Shown here: one piece after another, positions 20,485-64,000 of the stretch
How positions within the stretch are numbered: position 1 is the stretch's first letter
How the letters are laid out: each line of letters opens with the position of its first letter
Origin: an uncultured Dehalococcoidia bacterium
GTDB taxonomy: Bacteria > Chloroflexota > Dehalococcoidia > Lucifugimonadales > GCA-2712585
DNA length: 64,000 nt
Direction: 5' to 3'
Assembly: GCA_958295715.1 (NCBI GenBank)
Contig: OY282371.1
Coordinates: 62,001 to 126,000 of the forward strand
Notes under the pieces: model-generated
Told to the model about the DNA's origin: nothing
The model's input: only the letters and a program-made list of their open reading frames with translations
Database searches by the model: none
Translations under genes and position numbers: made by a program

Positions 20485-20544
20485 GGGTCTGACGCTGTGC
20501 CATTTTAGCAGATATACGCGGCCCCCACGCGCCCTTGTTGGGGG

Positions 20545-21057
20545 AAGGGCGCGTGCGCCCACTTTTGTTTTGAGGAGCGTTGGTTCTGCCATGCGGGGTT
20601 CCTGGATTCCCGCCTGGGCGGGATGGCGTCAGGTATGATTGGGGGAAGGTGTGGCAATGACGAGTGGGGGGTGTGGCGCCGTGGCCCTGCCGCAGTGGGG
20701 GCGAGGAAGATGGATTCCCGCCTGCGCGGGAAGGGCGCGTGCGCCCACTTTTGTTTTGAGGAGCGCTGGTTCTGCCATGCAGGGTTCCTGGATTCCCGCC
20801 TGCGCGGGAAGGGCGCGTGCGCCCACTTTTGTTTTGAGGAGCGCTGGTTCTGCCATGCAGGGTTCCTGGATTCCCGCCTGCGCGGGAAGGGCGCGTGCGC
20901 CCACTTTTGTTTTGAGGAGCGTCGGTTCTGCCATGCAGGGTTCCTGGATTCCCGCCTGCGCGGGAAGGGCGCGTGCGCCCACTTTTGTTTTGAGGAGCGT
21001 TGGTTCTGCCATGCAGGGTTCCTGGATTCCCGCCTGCGCGGGAATGACGGAGGGGAG
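20545..21057. repeat. 78-bp tandem repeat with paired palindromes
   Basis: Units start (GATTCCCG) at exactly 78-bp steps: 20713, 20791, 20869, 20947 and 21025, the last being cut short. A diverged copy lies at 20545-20625. Each unit carries two inverted repeats: TTCCCGCCTGCGCGGGAA, and GGGCGC-GT-GCGCCC. There are no variable spacers, so this is not CRISPR. A related inverted copy lies at 38412-38476 and simple ATTCCCGC palindromes recur at 36946 and 38150-38385. It behaves like an amplified REP/MITE-type intergenic element. Confidence 0.9.
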
Positions 21058-38145: not shown

Positions 38146-38173
38146 ATTCACATTCCCGCCTGCGCGGGAATGA
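37163..38173 (+). CDS. IS30-family transposase
   Basis: 336 residues. The N-terminal HTH is IVERCEIARLHATGHSLRQI, then AAALDRSPSTVARELKRN. The DDE triad is visible as D in GHWEADTMLF, D in VTFDNGTEF and E in GGVENAIGRLRRTLPRKTDL. The length is normal for IS30. The frame does not stop inside the element: it crosses the right inverted repeat and ends CEFTFPPARE at a TGA (38171-38173) supplied by the flanking ATTCCCGC palindrome. The element appears intact and may be active. Confidence 0.93.
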   Translation: MGLHYTQLDIVERCEIARLHATGHSLRQIAAALDRSPSTVARELKRNPSANGGYRPKYADQQAHARRWHGHRLTRDPTLREDVLARLELGWSPEQVSGRLALEKGRTVISYESIYRFIYAQIARTKDYSWRLYLPRRKSRRGWRGRRGGSSVSFIPDRLPLEERPQDADDRQRPGHWEADTMLFSAYGQVVLILHERCTRLLIALRPPGKAAGPIATAIAEALGPLPQEWRQTVTFDNGTEFARHHLLHALGIQTFFCDTRSPWQKGGVENAIGRLRRTLPRKTDLAAVSQERFTQLVQAYNHTPRKCLDYRTPAETFRNKVLHLKCEFTFPPARE

Positions 38174-38476
38174 CGGAATGGGGGGCTGGCGCGTGCGTCG
38201 TTGCGCGGTTGGCTCGGCGCAGCGGCAGGGGAAAGATGGATTCCCGCGCAGGCGGGAATCCAGGAACCCTACACAGCAGAACCAAAGTCCGAAACCCCGG
38301 CGTCACTCGTGGGGACGCCCTCCATGTACGAGCGTTGCCCGTCCTTGCCAAGGGGAAAGATGGATTCCCGCCTACGCGGGAATGCGGATGGGTGGGCAGA
38401 AGCCCCCATCGCAAAACCAACGCTCTTCAAAACATAAGTGGGCGCACGCGCCCTTCCCGCCTGCGCGGGAATGACG
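38150..38476. repeat. Cluster of ATTCCCGC palindromes, one composite element
   Basis: Palindromes lie at 38150-38176, 38235-38261 and 38359-38385. The segment 38412-38476 is an inverted, slightly diverged copy of most of the 78-bp unit of 20545-21057, including GGGCGCACGCGCCC and CCCGCCTGCGCGGG. The stretch holds open frames only because the repeats lack stops; no gene is supported between the IS and 38640. Confidence 0.85.
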
Positions 38477-44943: not shown

Positions 44944-45276
44944 GGTCCATCCCCGCCCATGCGGGGGAGCCATTGACCATCTGCCTGTAAGCTCAATCCG
45001 CCACGGTTTATCCCCGCGCGTGCGGGGGAACCCCGGGCGGATGGGGGCACGATGACTAAGAAGCGGGTTTATCCCCGCGCGTGCGGGGGAACCACGGAAC
45101 CTTGGGGCACGACCCCCAGGACCACCGGTTTATCCCCGCGCGTGCGGGGGAACCACGGAACCTTGGGGCACGACCCCCAGGACCACCGGTTTATCCCCGC
45201 GCGTGCGGGGGAACCACCCCTTCCCGCCGCCGGTGGTGGAGACAATGGGCTTTATCCCCGCGCGTGCGGGGGAACC
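44944..45276 (-). repeat. Leader-distal end of the array with variant repeats
   Basis: The first repeat (44944-44971) reads GGTCCATCCCCGCCCATGCG and then GGGGAGCC. Four repeats (45005, 45066, 45127, 45188) begin GGTTTATCC and the next (45249) begins GCTTTATCC. From 45310 the form GGTCTATCC takes over. The same spacer is present twice (45094-45126 and 45155-45187). Confidence 0.9.
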
Positions 45277-45736
45277 ACTTCGCCCTGTTCCTGCTGGTCA
45301 ATAAGCCGGGGTCTATCCCCGCGCGTGCGGGGGAACCGGGCCTCCGCTCCATGTTGGAGCGCGTGGGATGGGTCTATCCCCGCGCGTGCGGGGGAACCGA
45401 TGCTACCCGCGAGGGCTGCGTCGTGCATGACGGTCTATCCCCGCGCGTGCGGGGGAACCGTCCGGTTGGCCCTCCCAGATGTGCATGTATAGGGTCTATC
45501 CCCGCGCGTGCGGGGGAACCGCGCGGGTATCAAGACTGCGACTGGTCTGCGTGGGTCTATCCCCGCGCGTGCGGGGGAACCGTGCAAGCGTACGCGATAC
45601 GATACCGGCCCCCGGGTCTATCCCCGCGCGTGCGGGGGAACCGAGGCGTCGTCCGAGTCGGCCAGCAGGGGCAGCGGTCTATCCCCGCGTGTGCGGGGGA
45701 ACCTGGTCTTTCGTCGCAAATATGCCTTGTAGGTGC

Positions 45737-45947
45737 GGTCTATCCCCGCGCGTGCGGGGAAACCGAAGCTGCCCTGGGGTACGCAGCCCTTGGTTGCGGT
45801 CTATCCCCGCGCGTGCGGGGAAACCGTCCGCATAGAAGGCCACGGCCTTCCAGTCTGCGGTCTATCCCCGCGCGTGCGGGGAAACCCATGCCGACTTGGC
45901 GGCGGAGTACCCGCACCGGGGTCTATCCCCGCGCGTGCGGGGAAACC
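45737..45947 (-). repeat. Block of four repeats ending GGGGAAACC
   Basis: The repeats at 45737, 45798, 45859 and 45920 end CGTGCGGGGAAACC in place of CGTGCGGGGGAACC. They lie directly to the left of the 234-bp insert. A single repeat at 45676 has CGCGTGTG. After the insert two repeats (46243 and 46304) end GGGGGACCC. Confidence 0.9.
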
Positions 45948-46165
45948 CGTCTCCACCTCTTTTCTCTGGCCTGGCGCGAGTTCTCCCGCCAGGCCTCCAA
46001 CGCCGGCACAAACAGCGCCTCCAACTCTGGCCGCCGTCTCAGGGTCTTGTACAGCGCTCGTCGCGTGATCCTTAGCTCCCGCGCGACCGCCACTTTGGTC
46101 ACCAGGCCCCCACGGTCCCGCACCGCCGCCGCCGCCTGCTCCACCCGCTCTCCTGCACTGCTCAT
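45923..46165 (-). CDS. Captured HTH-like gene fragment inside the array
   Basis: Between the repeats at 45920 and 46182 lie 234 bp in place of a 33-bp spacer. On the minus strand GGGAGGTGAT is followed at once by an ATG (46165-46163) and an 80-codon frame. It begins SSAGERVEQAAAAVRDRGG and contains a probable helix-turn-helix (VTKVAVARELRITRRALYKT) and a basic tail. Its last seven codons and stop (VSPHARG, then TAG) are CRISPR repeat sequence, so the true gene is truncated. It resembles a small phage or plasmid regulator, but I do not recognise the family. Confidence 0.6.
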   Translation of the reverse strand: MSSAGERVEQAAAAVRDRGGLVTKVAVARELRITRRALYKTLRRRPELEALFVPALEAWRENSRQAREKRWRRVSPHARG

Positions 46166-46975
46166 ATCACCTCCCGACGCCGGTCTATCCCCGCGCGTGC
46201 GGGGGAACCGTGAGTAAGTCGTTGCCGCGCTACAGGTCACCGGGTCTATCCCCGCGCGTGCGGGGGACCCGACTTTGGATAGCGTGCTCTCAAGCAAGCC
46301 CGCGGTCTATCCCCGCGCGTGCGGGGGACCCTATAGATAGTCTTGGTTCTTTGTGCAACCTCAAGGTCTATCCCCGCGCGTGCGGGGGAACCGAGGCAAG
46401 GGCGTTCAAGCCGGAAGAATCAACCGGTCTATCCCCGCGCGTGCGGGGGAACCCCACCTTGGCGAGGCCAAGGATTGCCAGCATTGGGTCTATCCCCGCG
46501 CGTGCGGGGGAACCACTGCAACATGCCCATATCTAGACTCCCTTCCCGGGTCTATCCCCGCGCGTGCGGGGGAACCGCCTTGAGGGAGTCCAAATTGCGG
46601 CTCACGGTCGGTCTATCCCCGCGCGTGCGGGGGAACCGTGATGCCGCCCTCCCCGCCCAAGTTGTCAATCGGTCTATCCCCGCGCGTGCGGGGGAACCTC
46701 GGAGGCGCCATCTTGGGGTCCTTCGGAATACGGTCTATCCCCGCGCGTGCGGGGGAACCCGACGGAGAACTGCCCGGAAACAAAGGCGCACAGGTCTATC
46801 CCCGCGCGTGCGGGGGAACCTGCGACAGTGGAGGAGGTTAGGCCGGGGCCGGCGGTCTATCCCCGCGCGTGCGGGGGAACCATGGTCTTATTGACCCTCG
46901 CCAGGGCCCTGTGGGGTCTATCCCCGCGCGTGCGGGGGAACCGTGTAGCTGACTGTGTTGGTATCGCCGTTAGCG

Positions 46976-47005
46976 GGTCTATCCCCGCGCGTGCGGGGAT
47001 AGACC
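46976..47005 (-). repeat. Perfectly palindromic aberrant CRISPR repeat
   Basis: This 30-base repeat starts as usual (GGTCTATCCCCGCGCGT) but its right half is the reverse complement of its left half (GCGGGGATAGACC) instead of GCGGGGGAACC. The arms are 13 bp with four central bases. A normal 33-bp spacer (47006-47038) follows. Confidence 0.92.
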
Positions 47006-50000
47006 CGGCTGGTCCTTCCGGTACATCGACCGGTCTAAGGTCTATCCCCGCGCGTGCGGGGGAACCTTATGGCTGTAGTCATCGCTGGTCCCCATAGCGG
47101 GTCTATCCCCGCGCGTGCGGGGGAACCTTCATCGTGACGGGCGCGTGGACAGCAAGACGGGGTCTATCCCCGCGCGTGCGGGGGAACCTCCCAAGTGTCG
47201 GGGGCCAGAAATGCCGAGAGCGGTCTATCCCCGCGCGTGCGGGGGAACCTTCCCAGGTTCATCCCGCGCTCCTCCTCCTCGCGGTCTATCCCCGCGCGTG
47301 CGGGGGAACCGGGGGCGCCCCGCCGCAACATACCCCCCCTCAGGGTCTATCCCCGCGCGTGCGGGGGAACCCACGATGGTGCAGAAGGTGGTCAATGTCT
47401 AGTCGGTCTATCCCCGCGCGTGCGGGGGAACCGATTTTGTCTTCGCTGACAGACTCGTCAGCGAGGGTCTATCCCCGCGCGTGCGGGGGAACCTAGGGCA
47501 AGGTGAGTCGTCCGCCCGTCATGGTGGGTCTATCCCCGCGCGTGCGGGGGAACCACGGAATGCCAAAGCCGTTCACCTGAGTGAAAAGGTCTATCCCCGC
47601 GCGTGCGGGGGAACCGGATGTTGTAGGCGGCAACGTTCGGGTCAAAGGGGTCTATCCCCGCGCGTGCGGGGGAACCGTGGTTGTTAGGCGCAGTGTGTGG
47701 ACGCTCACCGGTCTATCCCCGCGCGTGCGGGGGAACCTGGCAGTGTCCATTGTGCAAGCGTCGAGTGACCGGTCTATCCCCGCGCGTGCGGGGGAACCTA
47801 TCCCCCCCGCTCTCCCCTTCTCCCGGCGCGCGGTCTATCCCCGCGCGTGCGGGGGAACCTGACGGAACGGGAGAAGACCGCCAAGGCCGCGCGGTCTATC
47901 CCCGCGCGTGCGGGGGAACCAAGACTATTTTGGCCGCCGTCCAAGCCTTCAAGGGTCTATCCCCGCGCGTGCGGGGGAACCCGCGGAGCCGCCCGTCTGC
48001 GCGCCCTAGTGGACGGTCTATCCCCGCGCGTGCGGGGGAACCAGTAGGCCATGAGCCGGCGCAAGGGCGGCCAGAGGTCTATCCCCGCGCGTGCGGGGGA
48101 ACCTAGCCCACGCCGGAGGTGCCGGTGGAGAGCCGCGGTCTATCCCCGCGCGTGCGGGGGAACCCCTGCCACCAAAGTAAACTGAATGGGACCATCGGGT
48201 CTATCCCCGCGCGTGCGGGGGAACCGGCGGCGGCGGCTCCCGGTCTTAGCCATTGGCGGGTCTATCCCCGCGCGTGCGGGGGAACCCAGGCCGGCGGCGC
48301 GCTTGAGCGCGCTCCGCTCGGTCTATCCCCGCGCGTGCGGGGGAACCTGCAAGAGGTCGCCCTATAACCACTGACCTGGCGGTCTATCCCCGCGCGTGCG
48401 GGGGAACCTGCAAGAGGTCGCCCTATAACCACTGACCTGGCGGTCTATCCCCGCGCGTGCGGGGGAACCTCCCCCCCCTCGGTCAAGGCCGCGGTGGAAG
48501 GGGGTCTATCCCCGCGCGTGCGGGGGAACCGCATGGAACCCTCGTCGTAAATCTCCTGTATGTGGTCTATCCCCGCGCGTGCGGGGGAACCGTTGGCGAC
48601 GACATGGGGGAGCCGGTTGGAGTAGGTCTATCCCCGCGCGTGCGGGGGAACCCGAGGGGGGGGAAGGCGTCGAGAGCTGCACGGCGGTCTATCCCCGCGC
48701 GTGCGGGGGAACCTAAGCCGTGCTCCCCACTGGCGAAGTAGACGGAGGTCTATCCCCGCGCGTGCGGGGGAACCCTCAAACTGCTCCTTTAGCCAGTCAA
48801 CGCGGTCGGTCTATCCCCGCGCGTGCGGGGGAACCTCGCCGGTCTCTGACATCTTTTCCAGTGCAGCCGGTCTATCCCCGCGCGTGCGGGGGAACCTCGC
48901 CGGTCTCTGACATCTTTTCCAGTGCAGCCGGTCTATCCCCGCGCGTGCGGGGGAACCTAGAGAACGTGGGCTTCTGGCACAAGCTGCCGGGGTCTATCCC
49001 CGCGCGTGCGGGGGAACCTGGAGGGAACGTTCCCCCAGTCCTTCGAATACGGGTCTATCCCCGCGCGTGCGGGGGAACCTTGTGGCTGTAGTCATCGCTG
49101 CTCCCCATAGCGGGTCTATCCCCGCGCGTGCGGGGGAACCGATATCCGAATGGAGTCTTGGGCCGCGTCAGCGGGTCTATCCCCGCGCGTGCGGGGGAAC
49201 CGGATGGAGAGGAAGCCGACGCCCAAGTGGGAGCGGTCTATCCCCGCGCGTGCGGGGGAACCACGCTTCATCACCTCTCTGCTCCCTGATTTTCCGGTCT
49301 ATCCCCGCGCGTGCGGGGGAACCGGGAGGATAGGGTTCGGAGGTCGGGACACTGCCGGTCTATCCCCGCGCGTGCGGGGGAACCCGGCTCCTGCTGACTC
49401 TGAATAGCGGCCAGCCGGGTCTATCCCCGCGCGTGCGGGGGAACCAGCACAGGACGCACAGGATGAAGCGTGGGAGAAGGTCTATCCCCGCGCGTGCGGG
49501 GGAACCCCCAAGAAGTCCGGGCGGTACGTGGACGTGGAGGGTCTATCCCCGCGCGTGCGGGGGAACCAACCGATGGGCGCTCAGCGACGCCGCCTTTGAC
49601 GGTCTATCCCCGCGCGTGCGGGGGAACCAATCTACCTCCACATAGACCACACCGCCCACGCGGTCTATCCCCGCGCGTGCGGGGGAACCAATGCGTCTAC
49701 CACATAGCCGCGCCAGCCTCCAGGTCTATCCCCGCGCGTGCGGGGGAACCCGCTTCAGTACGTCACCGATGCTGGGAACGGACGGTCTATCCCCGCGCGT
49801 GCGGGGGAACCCCCATCGTCTTTGTCCTTGACACCAGCGCCTCGGGTCTATCCCCGCGCGTGCGGGGGAACCCCGACAACCCGATGTCATTGCCGGCTTG
49901 GATGGGGTCTATCCCCGCGCGTGCGGGGGAACCCCCATCACCGGCTACAAGACCGTGAGCCGCAACGGTCTATCCCCGCGCGTGCGGGGGAACCTTAAAT

Positions 50001-52372
50001 TTCGTGCGCTTGGACCCCGCCCTATCCGGTCTATCCCCGCGCGTGCGGGGGAACCTCTATAGAAAGTCTACCCGTCATCCCGTGGGCCGGTCTATCCCCG
50101 CGCGTGCGGGGGAACCGCCCGTATTATCGGCGGCCGCCATAACCCTATGGGTCTATCCCCGCGCGTGCGGGGGAACCTGATAGGACGGCGCCCGAATATA
50201 TGGCGATACGGGTCTATCCCCGCGCGTGCGGGGGAACCACCGTCCGGAGAAGCCACTGCCACCGGTCCCAAGGTCTATCCCCGCGCGTGCGGGGGAACCC
50301 CCTTCCACATCGTAACCCGCTTTCTCAAGCCCGGTCTATCCCCGCGCGTGCGGGGGAACCGGCGCGATGATACCCGCGCCGGGAAAAGACGGGGGTCTAT
50401 CCCCGCGCGTGCGGGGGAACCCATCCGATTTGCTCCACTATCCCGTTGTAGAGGGGTCTATCCCCGCGCGTGCGGGGAACCCGGGGTGACGCGCCGCGCG
50501 GCGGCGATTTTCGCGGTCTATCCCCGCGCGTGCGGGGGAACCATAGCGCGGCGGGCCTCCCAGGTCCACAGCGACGGTCTATCCCCGCGCGTGCGGGGGA
50601 ACCCATCATCCACGCTATGGCGTGCTCCCCCCGCGCGGTCTATCCCCGCGCGTGCGGGGGAACCATTTCCCACTCACGAGATACACCCTGCGCTACGGGT
50701 CTATCCCCGCGCGTGCGGGGGAACCCAGACTACGATAGCGAAGGGGCTACTCGGGCGGGGTCTATCCCCGCGCGTGCGGGGGAACCCTCCCTCTTGCCCA
50801 CAGTGACATTTTTGACATCGGTCTATCCCCGCGCGTGCGGGGGAACCCGGCGCCACCAGTAGCGCGCCCTCCGACGCGGCGGTCTATCCCCGCGCGTGCG
50901 GGGGAACCTTAGGGCAGACTCCCAGCGCCGGGCCAGAACAAGGTCTATCCCCGCGCGTGCGGGGGAACCTAGTACATTTTCCCGTATAGCCGTCTGTATT
51001 CCGGTCTATCCCCGCGCGTGCGGGGGAACCGTCTTGTAGCTCCGGTGGCGGTGGGGGCAGGGCGGTCTATCCCCGCGCGTGCGGGGGAACCCGCCCATGA
51101 CGCAATGGAGGGAGCGGAGCGGCGGGTCTATCCCCGCGCGTGCGGGGGAACCGCGCCGTTACGCAGGGTGAGTGTCAACGTGGACGGTCTATCCCCGCGC
51201 GTGCGGGGGAACCTCCCCAGTTTGCGGATAGTCAACTGGATGGGCAGGTCTATCCCCGCGCGTGCGGGGGAACCGATTAAGACCTAGCCGCCTCTTCCCG
51301 CAAGGACGGTCTATCCCCGCGCGTGCGGGGGAACCACGGCTGGGACGCCCGTCATGTCCTCCCACCTCGGTCTATCCCCGCGCGTGCGGGGGAACCGCGT
51401 CAAGGAGCCTCAGAACGGGGAGCGATATCGGTCTATCCCCGCGCGTGCGGGGGAACCGGTCTGATTTCCGGTTCCCGTTGTTCCAACTGGGGTCTATCCC
51501 CGCGCGTGCGGGGGAACCCCTATGATGGTCCCTGCGCCGGATAGCCGGGCGGGTCTATCCCCGCGCGTGCGGGGGAACCCGCTCCAAGTTGGCGACGACG
51601 TGGGGGAGCCGGGGTCTATCCCCGCGCGTGCGGGGGAACCGCGGCCTTCTCCGGGCCGCCCACGGCGTCACGCGGTCTATCCCCGCGCGTGCGGGGGAAC
51701 CGTCCGTGGACGCTGGCCGCCCTCCACCGCGGCGGGTCTATCCCCGCGCGTGCGGGGGAACCCGGACTGAGGCGTGTCCCTACAACCCTGCGACGGGTCT
51801 ATCCCCGCGCGTGCGGGGGAACCCGCAGACGGCCCAGCAGTTGATAGATGGCGCGGGGTCTATCCCCGCGCGTGCGGGGGAACCGCGTCGGACGCTGTGG
51901 TAGCCGCCTTGGGTGACGGTCTATCCCCGCGCGTGCGGGGGAACCCGCGACGAACTCTCCATCGGCTACCGGTGGCAGGGTCTATCCCCGCGCGTGCGGG
52001 GGAACCAGATGGGTAGCGCAACCGCCGGGGTGGAACGGGGGTCTATCCCCGCGCGTGCGGGGGAACCGACCTGCGCCAAGTGTCCATACGGCGTCAGGTT
52101 GGTCTATCCCCGCGCGTGCGGGGGAACCCCCCACCGCTCCACCTAGCCGCCGCCCAGCATTGGTCTATCCCCGCGCGTGCGGGGGAACCTCCTTCAAGGG
52201 CAAGTATAGGGTGAATCTGTGGGGTCTATCCCCGCGCGTGCGGGGGAACCTCAAGTGTAAACTCCCACCCTGTGTCCGTTTCCGGTCTATCCCCGCGCGT
52301 GCGGGGGAACCTTGCGCCATGCGGCAAGGGCGGCCTTCTCCTCAGGTCTATCCCCGCGCGTGCGGGGGAACC

Positions 52373-52405
52373 GGGGGCCTCCGGGCTATCCCCGCGTTTG
52401 CGGGG
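52373..52405 (-). repeat. Spacer that is itself a CRISPR-repeat-like sequence
   Basis: This 33-bp spacer contains GGCTATCCCCGCGTTTGCGG, close to the array's own repeat (TCTATCCCCGCGCGTGCGGG) but with TT for CG in the centre and a different start. Both flanking repeats are normal, so it is a true spacer position. Confidence 0.85.
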
Positions 52406-55400
52406 GGTCTATCCCCGCGCGTGCGGGGGAACCGTGGTGGAAGGACTTCTACAGGAAAACGTGGAGGGTCTATCCCCGCGCGTGCGGGGGAACCGTCCCT
52501 ATGGCGTCAAGCCAGCCGTAATGCGCCGGTCTATCCCCGCGCGTGCGGGGGAACCGACTCTGGGAGTCGCTGGGCAAGGTGCAGGTACGGTCTATCCCCG
52601 CGCGTGCGGGGGAACCGCCGCGCCGCGCCGGATGCGAAGACTGAAGACCGGTCTATCCCCGCGCGTGCGGGGGAACCAAAGCGGGAAGGCCGGCGGCCAT
52701 GACCGGAATGGGTCTATCCCCGCGCGTGCGGGGGAACCTGGATGCGCACGAACACCCTGCGATTATGCCGCGGTCTATCCCCGCGCGTGCGGGGGAACCG
52801 AGTACAGCGCAGTATCCCCTACCACGATGGTGGGTCTATCCCCGCGCGTGCGGGGGAACCAAGAAGCGGGGTGTCCGTGAACTCGAGGGTCAGGGTCTAT
52901 CCCCGCGCGTGCGGGGGAACCGGTTCAGTGACGGCAGTGGGCAAGTCGGACGGGGGTCTATCCCCGCGCGTGCGGGGGAACCGCACGTCCTGGGCTAACC
53001 ACCCGCGCCCTCAAAGGTCTATCCCCGCGCGTGCGGGGGAACCGACTACGGATGGCTTTGGCCGCCATGATGACAGGGTCTATCCCCGCGCGTGCGGGGG
53101 AACCGCGGTCGTCCTGCTGGTGGCCGGCTCGTTCAGCGGTCTATCCCCGCGCGTGCGGGGGAACCGGCGGCGTCTATGAGGGTAGCCCGTCAAGGGGCGG
53201 TCTATCCCCGCGCGTGCGGGGGAACCGTCAGCAGTAGACGCTGGAGGTAGGCTATGCGCGGTCTATCCCCGCGCGTGCGGGGGAACCTGGCTCCGGGTCC
53301 CAATGCTAAAGTCCGTGATGGGTCTATCCCCGCGCGTGCGGGGGAACCACCGCTTTATCCCCTGGGCTTCTTGGGGTATAGGGTCTATCCCCGCGCGTGC
53401 GGGGGAACCAAAAGGGGTATGAAGTAAGAAAGGATACTCTCAGGTCTATCCCCGCGCGTGCGGGGGAACCCTCCGCCGCTGACGCGATAATGCCCACCAC
53501 CACGGTCTATCCCCGCGCGTGCGGGGGAACCGTTCCCTATACCGGCTAGCCGATGACACTACCAGGTCTATCCCCGCGCGTGCGGGGGAACCGCGATAAT
53601 GGGTTCCACTTTCTCCAGTATCACCGGTCTATCCCCGCGCGTGCGGGGGAACCATGGGCGTCAGGCTGGCGGAGATGCACCGGGTGGGTCTATCCCCGCG
53701 CGTGCGGGGGAACCGGATATCCGAAGGACTGGACCGACTCGGAGGCCGGTCTATCCCCGCGCGTGCGGGGGAACCACGTCTTCCTTCGCCGCGGCCTCCG
53801 TCGGGTAGGGTCTATCCCCGCGCGTGCGGGGGAACCTGCCCCAATAACTTAGGCGTGTCCTGTAATCAAGGTCTATCCCCGCGCGTGCGGGGGAACCGTC
53901 GGATGAGTCGGGCGGAAATGCTAGCCCACCGGTCTATCCCCGCGCGTGCGGGGGAACCTCCGTCTGGGCGGCGGCCTTGACCAGCGCCTGCGGTCTATCC
54001 CCGCGCGTGCGGGGGAACCATGCTTCAGTACATCACCAGTAGCGGGAGTGGGGGTCTATCCCCGCGCGTGCGGGGGAACCTGGGGTCTAGGCGCGGTGAT
54101 GGCGGAGACCAGCGGTCTATCCCCGCGCGTGCGGGGGAACCCTTTTTAGGACAAGCAGGGATAAGCGCGGCAATGGTCTATCCCCGCGCGTGCGGGGGAA
54201 CCTGAGGTGGTCGCCGTGGTGCCTTCTGATGCGGCGGTCTATCCCCGCGCGTGCGGGGGAACCCGAGTCAAACTGCTCGGCCATGAAAAGCACGTCGGTC
54301 TATCCCCGCGCGTGCGGGGGAACCGCTAACGCTGATGAAGCCGTAAGGCTTACGCTGGGTCTATCCCCGCGCGTGCGGGGGAACCAGCTTGCCGGTTCCC
54401 ACAATCCCCTTCCACACGGGTCTATCCCCGCGCGTGCGGGGGAACCATCATTCCACCCCGCGCTGACCAGGGCGTCGAGGGTCTATCCCCGCGCGTGCGG
54501 GGGAACCGCAGAGGAGGCTACGCGCCACGAATGCCTGAGAGGTCTATCCCCGCGCGTGCGGGGGAACCGCTCAAGGAACCGCGCATAGGCCAGCTTTTGG
54601 AGGTCTATCCCCGCGCGTGCGGGGGAACCCCACTACGGCGCGCTTATGAGGCCGCCAAGCGGGGTCTATCCCCGCGCGTGCGGGGGAACCTTGTTGATGC
54701 TCTAAGAAGGATAAACCACACACGGTCTATCCCCGCGCGTGCGGGGGAACCCCAAGCGAGAGGCTATGAGAGAGGCCCACCGCCGGTCTATCCCCGCGCG
54801 TGCGGGGGAACCCTCCCACCACCACGCCGGCTATGAGCGCCGCGAGGTCTATCCCCGCGCGTGCGGGGGAACCGCAGCGAAAATGTATGGGGTTCAGGGT
54901 CATATCGGTCTATCCCCGCGCGTGCGGGGGAACCCCGCCGCTGTCTGCGCCGGCCTCCTCTATGGCGGGTCTATCCCCGCGCGTGCGGGGGAACCGCCGG
55001 TAGGAGATAGCGCGGGTCTACGTGAACCGGTCTATCCCCGCGCGTGCGGGGGAACCTCCGTCAGGGTAAGCCGTGGCTCCGAGCCTGGGGGTCTATCCCC
55101 GCGCGTGCGGGGGAACCCGGTGGAGGGGGCTAGGATAGACGGCTTTATAGGGTCTATCCCCGCGCGTGCGGGGGAACCGGCGATAGACCAGCCACTGTCG
55201 GTTTCTTGGACGGTCTATCCCCGCGCGTGCGGGGGAACCGGTGATTGTCAGGCTCCCGGCGGGCGCGTCAATCCTCTATCCCCGCGCGTGCGGGGGAACC
55301 GGATAGCGGGTCGGAGTCACGGACCGCGCGCACGGTCTATCCCCGCGCGTGCGGGGGAACCGACTCCGAGACATGGTGGGGCATCATAGCCCTGGGTCTA

Positions 55401-58400
55401 TCCCCGCGCGTGCGGGGGAACCGCAACGATGCCAAGCCGGGCGATTCAATCGCCAGGTCTATCCCCGCGCGTGCGGGGGAACCTACATGATGAGTCCACT
55501 GGCCGCGCCTGCGCCGGGTCTATCCCCGCGCGTGCGGGGGAACCCACCGCGCCACTGGTAGCCTCGGCCAGCCCTACGGTCTATCCCCGCGCGTGCGGGG
55601 GAACCGGCGCCAGATTCCCCACCGTCCCATCCCCATTGGGTCTATCCCCGCGCGTGCGGGGGAACCTGCCGCCTCCTAGCTCCTTCTGCCTTTTCCACGG
55701 GTCTATCCCCGCGCGTGCGGGGGAACCAGGCGCGCACCGTGGACATCACCTGGCGGGAGCGGTCTATCCCCGCGCGTGCGGGGGAACCGTCTAAGGGCGA
55801 CCTGTTGATGGCTAAAGTTACGGTCTATCCCCGCGCGTGCGGGGGAACCGGCGGCGTCTATGAGGGTAGCCCGTCAAGGGGCGGTCTATCCCCGCGCGTG
55901 CGGGGGAACCCTCAAGCGGCGCGACATCCAGGTGACGGCCAGCGGTCTATCCCCGCGCGTGCGGGGGAACCTCCACCAGCCACTCGTCCATTCTGTCCTC
56001 CTGCGGTCTATCCCCGCGCGTGCGGGGGAACCGTGGCTATCACAGTGGACGACGGAGCCGTCCACGGTCTATCCCCGCGCGTGCGGGGGAACCTCCTTCG
56101 CCATGCCTCATAACGCCGCCTCCTCGGGTCTATCCCCGCGCGTGCGGGGGAACCGTCCCACTGTTCATCCCGCGCAGGAACGGGAGGGGTCTATCCCCGC
56201 GCGTGCGGGGGAACCGTAGACCCCAGAAACCCGTCGTTCATGTGGGACGGGTCTATCCCCGCGCGTGCGGGGGAACCCGCCGCACCCGTCACTCCCGCCG
56301 GACACCCCTGGGTCTATCCCCGCGCGTGCGGGGGAACCGGCCTCGACAGGGACTTCCTTGGGGTGGGTTCCGGTCTATCCCCGCGCGTGCGGGGGAACCC
56401 TTGCGCTTCAGTGCCTCACGGGTGAGTGGGACGGTCTATCCCCGCGCGTGCGGGGGAACCTCGTCCTGAAGGTCATGGTCATGCTGGTTCTGAGGTCTAT
56501 CCCCGCGCGTGCGGGGGAACCACGCCCGGCTCCCCTCTCAAAGTCGCTATCCCGGGTCTATCCCCGCGCGTGCGGGGGAACCGGCGTGAACGCGGCGGTT
56601 CTCCGTAACAAGATGGGTCTATCCCCGCGCGTGCGGGGGAACCGACACCCCAAGGCGGCCTGTCTTTAACCAGATGGGTCTATCCCCGCGCGTGCGGGGG
56701 AACCCAGGCCGGCGAGTACATCACCATGTCGCGCGGCGGTCTATCCCCGCGCGTGCGGGGGAACCCCTTTATCTCCCTCAACTGCAACCATCGTAATCGG
56801 TCTATCCCCGCGCGTGCGGGGGAACCTTTATAGTTGCTTGCTCACGCAACTTTTCCGGGGGTCTATCCCCGCGCGTGCGGGGGAACCGAGTGGGCGGTCG
56901 TGCAAGTCAAGCTCTCCATCGGTCTATCCCCGCGCGTGCGGGGGAACCCGCCAAGGGGTGTAGGGGATGTCCTTCCCGTTCGGTCTATCCCCGCGCGTGC
57001 GGGGGAACCAAGCCGGGGGTGGACGACCCGTACCGGCGGCGGGGTCTATCCCCGCGCGTGCGGGGGAACCGACTACCCACCAAGCCGGCTATCCGGTCAA
57101 TGAGGTCTATCCCCGCGCGTGCGGGGGAACCCAGACGCGGCTAAGCTGTTCCTGTCCCAGCCGCGGTCTATCCCCGCGCGTGCGGGGGAACCGAGCCGCA
57201 CCTGCGCCAGCCGACCTACGTCTGGGGTCTATCCCCGCGCGTGCGGGGGAACCCTGGCGGCACCTCTCCATCGGCAATATCACCGGGGTCTATCCCCGCG
57301 CGTGCGGGGGAACCTCCTCCTCTCTCTGATGAAGCCCCCGGCCAGGGGGTCTATCCCCGCGCGTGCGGGGGAACCTAACCGGCGATAACACGGACTACGA
57401 CGGAAAGGGGTCTATCCCCGCGCGTGCGGGGGAACCATAGCTGCCTGGGTGTAGCCCTCTAGCGTGGCGGGTCTATCCCCGCGCGTGCGGGGGAACCGGC
57501 ATAACTATTTGCTTCTCCAGGACGACGTAGGGTCTATCCCCGCGCGTGCGGGGGAACCCGCCTGGTCGTCGTCTTCAAAGCGCAAGGTGGCGGTCTATCC
57601 CCGCGCGTGCGGGGGAACCCGGAGGCCGCGATGAAGGCAGACGCGGCGCGCGGGTCTATCCCCGCGCGTGCGGGGGAACCTGAGTCCGAGGCCACGGACG
57701 CGCGGCTAGTGGAGGTCTATCCCCGCGCGTGCGGGGGAACCGAGATATCCGGCCTTCTACGCCTCCCCTCGCCAGGTCTATCCCCGCGCGTGCGGGGGAA
57801 CCGCCATGCTTTCCCCAAAGAGAGAACCCGGCCAGGGTCTATCCCCGCGCGTGCGGGGGAACCATGGGTAGCCCGCTCCGGTGGCACGGCTCCGAAGGTC
57901 TATCCCCGCGCGTGCGGGGGAACCGTGGATGGCCAAGCGAGCGGACGGCTCATCACCGGTCTATCCCCGCGCGTGCGGGGGAACCCAACCCGCGACCTGG
58001 AAGAAAGTGTGCCGGACGGGTCTATCCCCGCGCGTGCGGGGGAACCTAAATCGGACTCCACCCCATAGGAGCCAAAGCAGGTCTATCCCCGCGCGTGCGG
58101 GGGAACCTGCAACAGGCCGCCGACCGGTGGCGCAAGACGAGGTCTATCCCCGCGCGTGCGGGGGAACCCCCTCATATCCTCGGCGCTGGCCAGCGCGCCG
58201 CGGTCTATCCCCGCGCGTGCGGGGGAACCGTCCCGCTATTCATTCCGCGCAGGAATGCCAGGGGTCTATCCCCGCGCGTGCGGGGGAACCGGCGCGATGT
58301 TGCGGGTAGGGACTACTACCTACGGTCTATCCCCGCGCGTGCGGGGGAACCGGTCCCTGACTGTCGTCGTGCTCACGCCACGCGGGTCTATCCCCGCGCG

Positions 58401-59632
58401 TGCGGGGGAACCTTTCATCCGGTCGGGGTTCATGGCCGTTTGGTGGGTCTATCCCCGCGCGTGCGGGGGAACCTGCCTGTCTTCGCGCAGGTGAACGGCT
58501 TTGGAAGGTCTATCCCCGCGCGTGCGGGGGAACCGCTCTCCATTCCGAGATTGCAGCCGAGCGCGCAGGTCTATCCCCGCGCGTGCGGGGGAACCCCACG
58601 GGCATAAGCTCCGACGACGCCACCAGGAGGTCTATCCCCGCGCGTGCGGGGGAACCGCCGCCGGCTTTGACTTTGAGGCGGTGGCGGCTGCTCTATCCCC
58701 GCGCGTGCGGGGGAACCGCCATCGCAGCGCTGGCCCATAGCATTTTGACAGGTCTATCCCCGCGCGTGCGGGGGAACCGCCAACATCTAGGAGGAAGGCA
58801 TGGCTGGAAGAGGTCTATCCCCGCGCGTGCGGGGGAACCCGAGACAGTGAGCGCGGAGCGGCTGGAGGTGTAGGTCTATCCCCGCGCGTGCGGGGGAACC
58901 GGATTCCTGATAGTCGGTGTAGTCACCAGCAGCGGTCTATCCCCGCGCGTGCGGGGGAACCCGCTATAGCCTGAATAGCTTGCCTTTTCCCAACGGTCTA
59001 TCCCCGCGCGTGCGGGGGAACCATAGAGCCAACCCCAGACTTTCCCGGCCACCTAGGTCTATCCCCGCGCGTGCGGGGGAACCGCCGGTTAAACATGTCT
59101 AGGCGGGGCGCTTCCGGGTCTATCCCCGCGCGTGCGGGGGAACCGTTCCCCCATAAACATGGGGATAGCCCCCAGACGGTCTATCCCCGCGCGTGCGGGG
59201 GAACCATCCTGAAGGGCGCGCGACTGACTGGGCAACAGGGTCTATCCCCGCGCGTGCGGGGGAACCGCGCCGCCGCTCACCCCGGAGCAAGAGGCATTCG
59301 GTCTATCCCCGCGCGTGCGGGGGAACCCTCACGAGCCGCCGTGCCTATCTCAAGCGGGAGGGTCTATCCCCGCGCGTGCGGGGGAACCCAGTCCTGGCAG
59401 GTGACGCCGCGACCGTTCCGGGGTCTATCCCCGCGCGTGCGGGGGAACCCGCTACAGGACCGCCAGGGCCGCGTGGTACAAAGGTCTATCCCCGCGCGTG
59501 CGGGGGAACCGTTTCCGGGCGGTTCTCCATCGGCTTGGGCGGCGGTCTATCCCCGCGCGTGCGGGGGAACCTAGTACGCATTAAAAGACTACTATAAACA
59601 CAGAGGTCTATCCCCGCGCGTGCGGGGGAACC

Positions 59633-59787
59633 TCGTCCTAGCCATCCGTGGACGTGGCGCTTCTCGGTCTATCCCCGCGCGTGCGGGGGAACCTCGTCCT
59701 AGCCATCCGTGGACGTGGCGCTTCTCGGTCTATCCCCGCGCGTGCGGGGGAACCTCGTCCTAGCCATCCGTGGACGTGGCGCTTCTC
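59633..59787 (-). repeat. Triplicated spacer
   Basis: The same 33-bp spacer occupies three consecutive positions: 59633-59665, 59694-59726 and 59755-59787. Adjacent doublets also occur at 48348/48409 and 48836/48897. This fits slippage or recombination between repeats rather than separate acquisitions. Confidence 0.92.
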
Positions 59788-62700
59788 GGTCTATCCCCGC
59801 GCGTGCGGGGGAACCGGCGTACACCTATGACAAGCGCGGGCGGTGGGGGGTCTATCCCCGCGCGTGCGGGGGAACCCAGGCGGCCGAGAAATGCGCGCCT
59901 TTTGAGGGGGGTCTATCCCCGCGCGTGCGGGGGAACCTGATGACCGGTGGACTCCGAGGCCGCAAGGCGAGGTCTATCCCCGCGCGTGCGGGGGAACCTC
60001 TCCATCACACCAAGACTTTCTGGGACTGCTAGGTCTATCCCCGCGCGTGCGGGGGAACCCGGCGGATCCCGAACAAGAAAGAACCCGGCCAGGGTCTATC
60101 CCCGCGCGTGCGGGGGAACCGGACGGTGCCTGCGCCCGGTGCGGCGGTCGGAGGGTCTATCCCCGCGCGTGCGGGGGAACCTCAATCAAAGTCTTGGCCG
60201 CGGCGACTGTCGACGGTCTATCCCCGCGCGTGCGGGGGAACCGTACTCAGGCGCGCCTTCAGCATGGCCAAGCCAGGTCTATCCCCGCGCGTGCGGGGGA
60301 ACCCTGTGCCTGGAGACGCCTGTCGCCGGCCCCGGGGGTCTATCCCCGCGCGTGCGGGGGAACCGTCGGGATGCTGTTGCCCTTCAAGGCAGGGAGCGGT
60401 CTATCCCCGCGCGTGCGGGGGAACCAGACTCGGAGCTAGGGACCTACCCCCGGCCGGGGGTCTATCCCCGCGCGTGCGGGGGAACCAACCCCCGCCCGGG
60501 GTGGCAAGGCCCCGGGATAGGTCTATCCCCGCGCGTGCGGGGGAACCGGCCACTGTGGAGTCTGAGCGGCCGCCGACCACGGTCTATCCCCGCGCGTGCG
60601 GGGGAACCTGGAGGTGATGGGCCTCGAAGGGAATATGACACGGTCTATCCCCGCGCGTGCGGGGGAACCCGGTTCGGCTTCACCCCCGACCAGTTGGAAG
60701 GAGGTCTATCCCCGCGCGTGCGGGGGAACCGACGCTGGACATTGCGCCGGTTATAGCCAGGGCGGTCTATCCCCGCGCGTGCGGGGGAACCTGGTACGTA
60801 TGGTGGTGCGGAATGACGGCATGAGGTCTATCCCCGCGCGTGCGGGGGAACCACACTGCCCTGGACTCCGCTCACGTCTTTCGTCGGTCTATCCCCGCGC
60901 GTGCGGGGGAACCATTGTGGACGGCGTGGCGACCACGGGCGCAGGGGGTCTATCCCCGCGCGTGCGGGGGAACCAGCCGACGGCCAAGGGGAGCCACCGG
61001 CGGGGCCGGTCTATCCCCGCGCGTGCGGGGGAACCCTCAGCACACCAGCGACACCGGCGGCCGTGAACGGTCTATCCCCGCGCGTGCGGGGGAACCTACT
61101 TTGACGACCTCTCGCTCAACGGCTCAAACGGTCTATCCCCGCGCGTGCGGGGGAACCGCCCGTGCCCAACTCCTCGCGTGCGCATTTCATGGTCTATCCC
61201 CGCGCGTGCGGGGGAACCCTGTCGCCGGCCCCCGGGTTGACAGGCGGGGGGGGTCTATCCCCGCGCGTGCGGGGGAACCGCTATAGACGGCGTCCCCGCC
61301 ACCGGCGCGGGGGGTCTATCCCCGCGCGTGCGGGGGAACCCGCGCTGCCAGTGTCCTATATGCGCCGCGCCGCGGTCTATCCCCGCGCGTGCGGGGGAAC
61401 CCGGCGCGGCACGGCGCCCAAGAAGGCAGGGCGGGGTCTATCCCCGCGCGTGCGGGGGAACCGCGACGACGGCCAGGTTGGCACTAAAAGGACAGGGTCT
61501 ATCCCCGCGCGTGCGGGGGAACCGTGGGCATGAGGATATCTACTCGGCCTATCCCGGGTCTATCCCCGCGCGTGCGGGGGAACCCACACGATGCAGTGGG
61601 CGGGCGTGCTATGCTCGGGTCTATCCCCGCGCGTGCGGGGGAACCTCGCCCAGGGAGTCGTATATCAGTAGCCTGAATGGTCTATCCCCGCGCGTGCGGG
61701 GGAACCAAGACCAGTGCGGCTCGACATCCTCCGACAGAAGGTCTATCCCCGCGCGTGCGGGGGAACCCGACGCTCAACATGATGTCGCATATCGCCATAC
61801 GGTCTATCCCCGCGCGTGCGGGGGAACCTTAGGGCTGGCAATCGGAACCTCAACAAACAGAGGTCTATCCCCGCGCGTGCGGGGGAACCGCTTAGAATCT
61901 CGTCAATCGGATACTCGACAAAGGTCTATCCCCGCGCGTGCGGGGGAACCAGCTACCATCGGCACGAGCGGGACGGCGGGCCAGGTCTATCCCCGCGCGT
62001 GCGGGGGAACCTGGCCCCTCGTGGTCCTACTGCTCTTTTCGTGGGGTCTATCCCCGCGCGTGCGGGGGAACCATGCCGGCTGCCTACCATCCCGCCGGCG
62101 GGCAGGGTCTATCCCCGCGCGTGCGGGGGAACCGGACGGCGAAGGCGTGACGCAGACTGTGGTGACGGTCTATCCCCGCGCGTGCGGGGGAACCGCCCGC
62201 CCGTGGACGCGGGCCAGCCGTGGATAAGGTCTATCCCCGCGCGTGCGGGGGAACCCCCCGCCCCTGGAGGTCGCTGAGCGGAGCGCGCGGTCTATCCCCG
62301 CGCGTGCGGGGGAACCAGCCGGGAGACAGTGGACGAGCAGGACGAGCAGGGTCTATCCCCGCGCGTGCGGGGGAACCACAGGGTGCGCCGGTGGGGAAGC
62401 GACCGCGTGGGGTCTATCCCCGCGCGTGCGGGGGAACCCTTCATCTGTCTCCTCCTTATTTGACGGGTTATGGTCTATCCCCGCGCGTGCGGGGGAACCG
62501 CGTCGCCAGGCACCGACCGACCGGTCGGTCGGGGTCTATCCCCGCGCGTGCGGGGGAACCGATCCTGCGCTGAGGCGAGGGCGGCGCGAGCGCGGTCTAT
62601 CCCCGCGCGTGCGGGGGAACCGTCGTCACTGACCCTCCCTATTTTCTGGACGGCGGTCTATCCCCGCGCGTGCGGGGGAACCGGTGGACTAACATGTTGA

Positions 62701-64000
62701 AATACGGTCACAAGGGGTCTATCCCCGCGCGTGCGGGGGAACCCTTATCTAACAACAATACGAAGAGGTACAATACGGTCTATCCCCGCGCGTGCGGGGG
62801 AACCGACCTGGCGCCGGGGATCTGCCCGGAGGTAGAGGGTCTATCCCCGCGCGTGCGGGGGAACCGCCGTTAGGCCCTTCCTCCACCTGGTAGATGTCGG
62901 TCTATCCCCGCGCGTGCGGGGGAACCGGTGTATGGAGCCACGACAAGGCGCGGGCGGCGGTCTATCCCCGCGCGTGCGGGGGAACCGGTTCTGGTTATGC
63001 TGGCCCTGATTGCGGCTGAGGTCTATCCCCGCGCGTGCGGGGGAACCCAGACCTTCAACGTGCGCGCCAAACTCTATGACGGTCTATCCCCGCGCGTGCG
63101 GGGGAACCGAACTGAATCATCAGATTCAATATTACTCAATGGGTCTATCCCCGCGCGTGCGGGGGAACCTAGATATGTACTCATTATATCCGAACGCATC
63201 AAGGTCTATCCCCGCGCGTGCGGGGGAACCCCCTGTGCGCTTGAACTTGCCCGCAGGCACACCGGTCTATCCCCGCGCGTGCGGGGGAACCAACCCGTCA
63301 CCCGTAGTGGGGGGCCGTTGCGGAGGTCTATCCCCGCGCGTGCGGGGGAACCACTGGGCCTATGGCTCTGGCGGCAACGGGGTGAGGTCTATCCCCGCGC
63401 GTGCGGGGGAACCGACTGGTACGAGCCGAAGGCGCAGGCGGGGATGGGTCTATCCCCGCGCGTGCGGGGGAACCAAAACACCTGACAAAGGCAAAGATAT
63501 GGTAATGGGTCTATCCCCGCGCGTGCGGGGGAACCAGTTCTACATCTACGCCCTCATGGACAGTGGCGGGTCTATCCCCGCGCGTGCGGGGGAACCTAGG
63601 GGTGACAGTGAACCGAGGCTGCAAGGTAAGGTCTATCCCCGCGCGTGCGGGGGAACCTGGAGGGAACGTTCCCCCAGTCCTTCGAATACGGGTCTATCCC
63701 CGCGCGTGCGGGGGAACCGCCGAGAAAGCCTTGGAAGCCGCCGAGAACGACGGTCTATCCCCGCGCGTGCGGGGGAACCCTCATGGCCTTCAAGGAGACG
63801 GGGCTGGGCGACGGTCTATCCCCGCGCGTGCGGGGGAACCTGGTTCAAAGACGGGGACACCAACAATGTGCTCGGTCTATCCCCGCGCGTGCGGGGGAAC
63901 CTGCGAGAGCTAGGGTCAACCCCGACCACCGGCCGGTCTATCCCCGCGCGTGCGGGGGAACCCACCGACGCCAAGTTCCACTCCGACAGTACGCGGGTCT

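Follow-up and report, generated by a model that had tools for sequence, protein, structure and literature searches.

In type I-E CRISPR-Cas systems the strand transfers made by Cas1-Cas2 cut at the repeat borders, and the Cas1-Cas2 ruler normally fixes the length of the spacer. In type I-F, spacers of variant length have been described, errors of the PAM-distal cut altering their length by a few nucleotides (PMC5059440). Long spacers have also been studied in type I-F: Cascade carrying a 176-nt spacer was purified, and the extended complexes interfered as the wild type did (PMC7296934). A shallow word search covering part of the literature retrieved no report of natural spacers as long as the one described here.

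We analysed a window of 64,000 nucleotides, the whole stretch of DNA considered, which corresponds to C1:62001-126000 in a genome of 2.40 Mb assembled in two contigs. It contains most of a type I-E array, with the following features (window coordinates):

44944-64000, minus strand: type I-E CRISPR array, 311 repeats and 310 spacers overall, extending to 64084, 84 bp beyond the window
45737-45947, minus strand: four GGGGAAACC repeats, older side
45920-45947, minus strand: older (trailer)-side flanking repeat, GGGGAAACC variant, sequence GGTCTATCCCCGCGCGTGCGGGGAAACC
45923-46165, minus strand: 80-aa open frame, ATG at 46165-46163 and stop inside the older repeat; weak HTH character, no relatives
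45948-46181, minus strand: oversized spacer of 234 bp with gene-start-like sequence on the crRNA-sense strand; single copy in the genome
46166-46175, minus strand: Shine-Dalgarno-like GGGAGGTGAT immediately 5' of the ATG
46182-46209, minus strand: newer (leader)-side flanking repeat, consensus
46243-46331, minus strand: two GGGGGACCC repeats, newer side

The array repeat is 28 bp long, with the consensus GGTCTATCCCCGCGCGTGCGGGGGAACC read on the plus strand, and 304 of the 310 spacers have 33 nt; the others have 32 (two), 34 (two), 35 (one) and 234 nt (one). A complete I-E cas locus (cas2e, cas1e, cas6e, cas5e, cas7e, cse2, a cas8e-like gene and cas3, each on the minus strand; the cas8e-like match narrowly misses the curated cut-off) adjoins the array just past the window. 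Since cas2e and cas1e adjoin the right end of the array, we place the leader there; the left end is the old trailer, and its first repeat is degenerate. The nearest Cas1e relatives belong to MAGs of Dehalococcoidia and other Chloroflexota. Two genomes of the same genus (G001 and G002) have neither cas1 nor the repeat, and the entire array gave no near match when compared with phages. Between cas8e and cas3 the genome has a second array (L005:7029-7726, G000:C1:132928-133625). It is degenerate, runs in the opposite orientation and has 12 repeats, of which two show the same GGGGAAACC-type change as beside the 234-bp insert.

The main array has further particularities. Exact spacer duplicates occur in tandem or thousands of bases apart (45094/45155, 48348/48409, 48836/48897, 59633/59694/59755, 63841/64024, of which 64024 is past the window end, 49019/63658 and 53166/55850). 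The repeat at 46976-47005, which at 30 bp exceeds the others by 2 bp, has turned into a perfect palindrome, GGTCTATCCCCGCGCGTGCGGGGATAGACC; this looks like a template-switch (quasi-palindrome) mutation. Two spacers, 52373-52405 and 59144-59171, contain sequence resembling the I-E repeats of other organisms, the first with matches of about 91-93% to repeats from several arrays of Chloroflexota; to judge from this resemblance, it is as if they had been captured from another CRISPR array, perhaps a phage- or plasmid-borne one. Elsewhere in the window, a dispersed palindromic REP-like family, ATTCCCGCCTGCGCGGGAA, unrelated to the CRISPR repeat, is found at 20542-20999 and 38151-38471.

The original prediction placed a 234-bp insert in the position of a spacer at 45948-46181, and these coordinates are exact: the insert fills the slot of one 33-bp spacer, and complete 28-bp repeats abut both of its ends (45920-45947 and 46182-46209). 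On the minus (crRNA) strand it reads GGCGTCGGGAGGTGATATGAGC... It is the 17th spacer counted from the trailer and is therefore old. Like any I-E spacer it has complete array repeats on both sides, but we call it an oversized variant rather than an ordinary spacer because it measures 234 nt instead of about 32-34 nt. An Rfam search of the insert gave no match. When it was folded as RNA together with its repeats, z was -2.7, a value owed mostly to the GC-rich hairpins of the repeats and to a single 9-bp stem.

On the same strand, GGGAGGTGAT-ATG spans 46175-46163 and is followed by 72 full open codons in a frame that runs into the older repeat, so that the signature, from ribosome site through the left border, occupies 228 of the 234 bp. 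A ribosome site with an ATG and at least 60 open codons was found in 89 of 20,000 random sequences from a first-order Markov (dinucleotide-matched) model, and in 396 of 20,000 (2%) random 234-mers drawn from the window. The arrangement thus looks like a real gene start, these chance rates being short of proof. In addition, the first 15 nt of the insert can be read as the final codons and stop of an upstream frame (GGC GTC GGG AGG TGA), as at a packed gene boundary. The frame had been predicted to provide 73 codons of an HTH-like protein. The ribosome site, the ATG and the open frame hold, but the HTH call is weak: the best Pfam matches of the 80-aa frame, HTH_8 (E=0.028) and YdaS (E=0.039), both miss the cut-off, so that no HTH family is matched significantly. 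An AlphaFold single-sequence model is all-helical with a pLDDT of 73 and has no significant fold match in the PDB. The HTH character of this orphan protein is only suggestive.

We searched for a source of the insert, as had been recommended, in phage and plasmid sequence and in the rest of the genome, and found none. Its DNA has no source among phages and plasmids and no second copy in its own genome. The protein has no credible relative in GTDB genomes, IMG/VR, phages, plasmids, 60 relatives and 343 members of the class, and the antisense open frame of the insert, also searched, has no source either. Two weak protein matches (L026 and L028), one across a lipase-like gene and the other inside an oxidoreductase locus, look like chance and were rejected. 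None of the other spacers of both arrays matches the insert over more than 11-12 nt. The second contig of the genome (G000:C2, 55,210 bp; L123-L125) reads phage-like, with large ORFs that resemble terminase and portal genes by eye. It carries no copy of the insert, and none of the array spacers matches it well.

The same DNA had been proposed to be either a captured fragment or the remnant of a mobile element, and the two options fared differently. No target duplication of at least 4 nt consistent with a 32-34-nt host spacer was detected, and no terminal inverted match exceeds 5 nt; applied to L033, a related array, the same test recovers an 8-bp duplication and 26-bp inverted repeats. The insert thus has neither the inverted repeats and target duplication of an insertion sequence or MITE nor further genomic copies, and the remnant option is unsupported. 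Nor did we detect any similarity of the insert to the leader, or any leader-like stretch bordering the older block on its leader side, so that the insert is not the junction of two whole arrays. Capture is favoured, and is backed by the exact borders, the gene-like sequence over nearly all of the insert, the absence of a leader and a 689-bp phage-like analogue found in a survey of related arrays.

This survey sampled DNA adjoining cas1e: 49 named loci, together with 40 regions from members of the class and the phylum. In 65 I-E arrays with 3,182 spacers, nearly all spacers deviate from the modal length by no more than 3 nt. When N gaps (three related arrays have them within spacers), array ends and the L033 element are set aside, two clear mid-array over-long spacers remain, one of 61 nt (L097) and one of 689 nt (L045). 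The statement that the ruler makes ordinary capture of 234 bp improbable is therefore fair (1 of 310 spacers here, about 1 in 3,000 in the survey). The window case is rare yet not unique, with one close analogue. L045, from Chloroflexota RHO3_bin_54 (JAPPMU010000024.1), has 107 and 31 normal spacers on the two sides of its insert, which contains, besides a short ORF, the beginning of an HTH-like ORF on the crRNA strand and a 75-aa ORF similar to the phage baseplate-hub family phrog_46 (E=1e-4). No second copy of it was found in its genome. Large gaps in L031, L034, L037, L038, L049 and L052 were not counted, being either between arrays and cas genes or N gaps; the 428-bp gap of L047, which sits among degenerate trailer repeats, was left as an undecided case. 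In L067 and L106, gaps of about 90 nt correspond in length to two spacers separated by a worn repeat. In the cas region of L034 (9338-9952), upstream of cas1, 615 bp with an ORF lie between two solo CRISPR repeats.

We then considered the repeats around the insert. A switch of repeat type had been described at this point, and four GGGGAAACC repeats do lie to its left and two GGGGGACCC repeats soon to its right; given the lack of leader-like sequence, the switch does not mark a fusion of two complete arrays. The repeat immediately right of the insert is the consensus, and the two flanking repeats differ by one base; in 15 of the 309 other adjacent pairs of the array the repeats differ as well. 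Copies of one parental repeat with a later change in one of them would also give this difference. In all three over-long non-transposon mid-array spacers (234 nt in the window, 689 in L045, 61 in L097) the flanks differ, the older repeat being a variant and the newer one the consensus, while adjacent pairs differ at a rate of 3-5% (16/310 in the window array, 5/139 in L045, 11/320 in L097); in the transposon case of L033 the flanking repeats are identical. Over-long insertions may thus accompany exchange or replacement of the leader-proximal repeat, an open lead that counts three cases, with high rates near the trailer and another explanation at hand for L097. Indeed, 10 of the 31 first adjacent pairs of the window array differ, and since trailer-side variants cluster anyway, the coincidence is weaker than it appears. 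In L097 (83-19599), a relative's array of 321 repeats, changes of the first repeat base start at spacers of 32 nt and stop at spacers of 34, 35 or 61 nt. Slippage of the spacer-side cut would be expected to produce this pattern, provided that the leader side is where measurement of the 28-nt duplication starts.

Putting these observations together, we give about even probability to the reading that the insert is an over-long foreign fragment, integrated exactly at the repeat borders by Cas1e-Cas2e after escaping the ruler. It builds on the borders, the polarity and the uniqueness of the insert and on the lack of transposon marks and of a leader, all directly observed. Exact borders at either end suggest the two strand transfers that Cas1-Cas2 carries out. 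We infer that the fragment would be foreign DNA, probably from a phage or other mobile element, comprising the end of one frame, the ribosome site of the next gene and its first 72 codons, and that it would have been joined while this position adjoined the leader. The ruler would bar 234 bp if a single complex held both ends, but uncoupled half-sites would not be so limited; the most likely route of escape would be an untrimmed fragment, each end of which was joined by a separate, uncoupled half-site reaction. Because the second end could then use a different repeat, unequal flanks would be explained. Transcription of the pre-crRNA would yield a predicted crRNA with a 234-nt spacer, which, by analogy with the extended type I-F complexes, need not be useless. 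Against this reading we counted that no source sequence was found, that the ruler normally fixes length and that one integration should leave identical flanks, whereas those observed differ. More generally, and only as a tentative and rather doubtful proposal, native I-E adaptation may rarely insert untrimmed fragments of hundreds of bp at repeat borders, the two ends entering by half-site reactions that are not coupled. This would often happen at a change of repeat type, and giant arrays would thereby retain phage DNA in gene-sized pieces.

The insert and its unequal flanks could also reflect a rearrangement in which the stretch between two distant repeats was lost and then replaced by, or fused across, non-array DNA through recombination or break repair. 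All three over-long cases share this inequality, and exchange between arrays is possible because the second array of the genome shares the GGGGAAACC-type repeats. Such an event is nevertheless unlikely in our view: in two independent cases both borders coincide exactly with repeat ends, nothing leader-like is present where the older block ends on its leader side, variants cluster near the trailer regardless, and those of L097 concern the first repeat base, go with 32-35-nt spacers and are explained by border slippage. Later insertion of a small fragment, mobile or random, into a normal 33-nt spacer has a precedent, since a tandem IS-like element lies within a spacer of L033, but the single genomic copy and the absence of the terminal marks seen there (longest inverted match of 5 nt, no compatible duplication) make this quite improbable.

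Arrays of near-identical repeats are hard to assemble, as the N gaps within spacers of three related arrays illustrate, and the insert might result from an artefact joining two arrays or collapsing part of one. In a genome of two contigs this has little probability: the insert and its repeats cover less than 300 bp, an easy span for a long read, and the spacing is regular on either side. We attach scarcely any probability to a functional small gene that the array retains, with the pre-crRNA serving as its mRNA. It would account for the ATG and its good ribosome site, both on the crRNA strand, and in L045 an HTH-like ORF likewise starts on that strand; on the other hand, the protein has no relatives, its HTH scores are weak, its C-terminus consists of repeat codons, and only 16 bp of insert precede the ATG, leaving no room for a promoter.

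Natural giant spacers with exact borders would reveal failure of the ruler in vivo, would preserve longer pieces of invaders than any normal spacer and would serve as natural test cases for long crRNAs. Array finders that rely on regular spacing may miss them, and they could be under-reported.

Compared with known systems, the insert shares with an ordinary I-E spacer acquired by Cas1e-Cas2e its slot, its complete 28-bp repeats and the full cas locus adjoining the array, but differs from it by its length (234 against 33 nt) and its non-identical flanks. The mis-measured spacers of type I-F are likewise altered in length, but by a few nucleotides and not by 200 (PMC5059440). The tandem element pair of L033 (13289-14687), with IS6-like ends, is also non-array DNA between repeats; unlike the window insert, it has 26-bp terminal inverted repeats, an 8-bp target duplication, two element copies and identical flanks. 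The L045 insert resembles that of the window in its exact repeat borders, its foreign-looking gene fragments, its lack of duplication and inverted repeats and its unequal flanking repeats, but it is three times as long and more clearly phage-like, and the two have no sequence similarity to each other.
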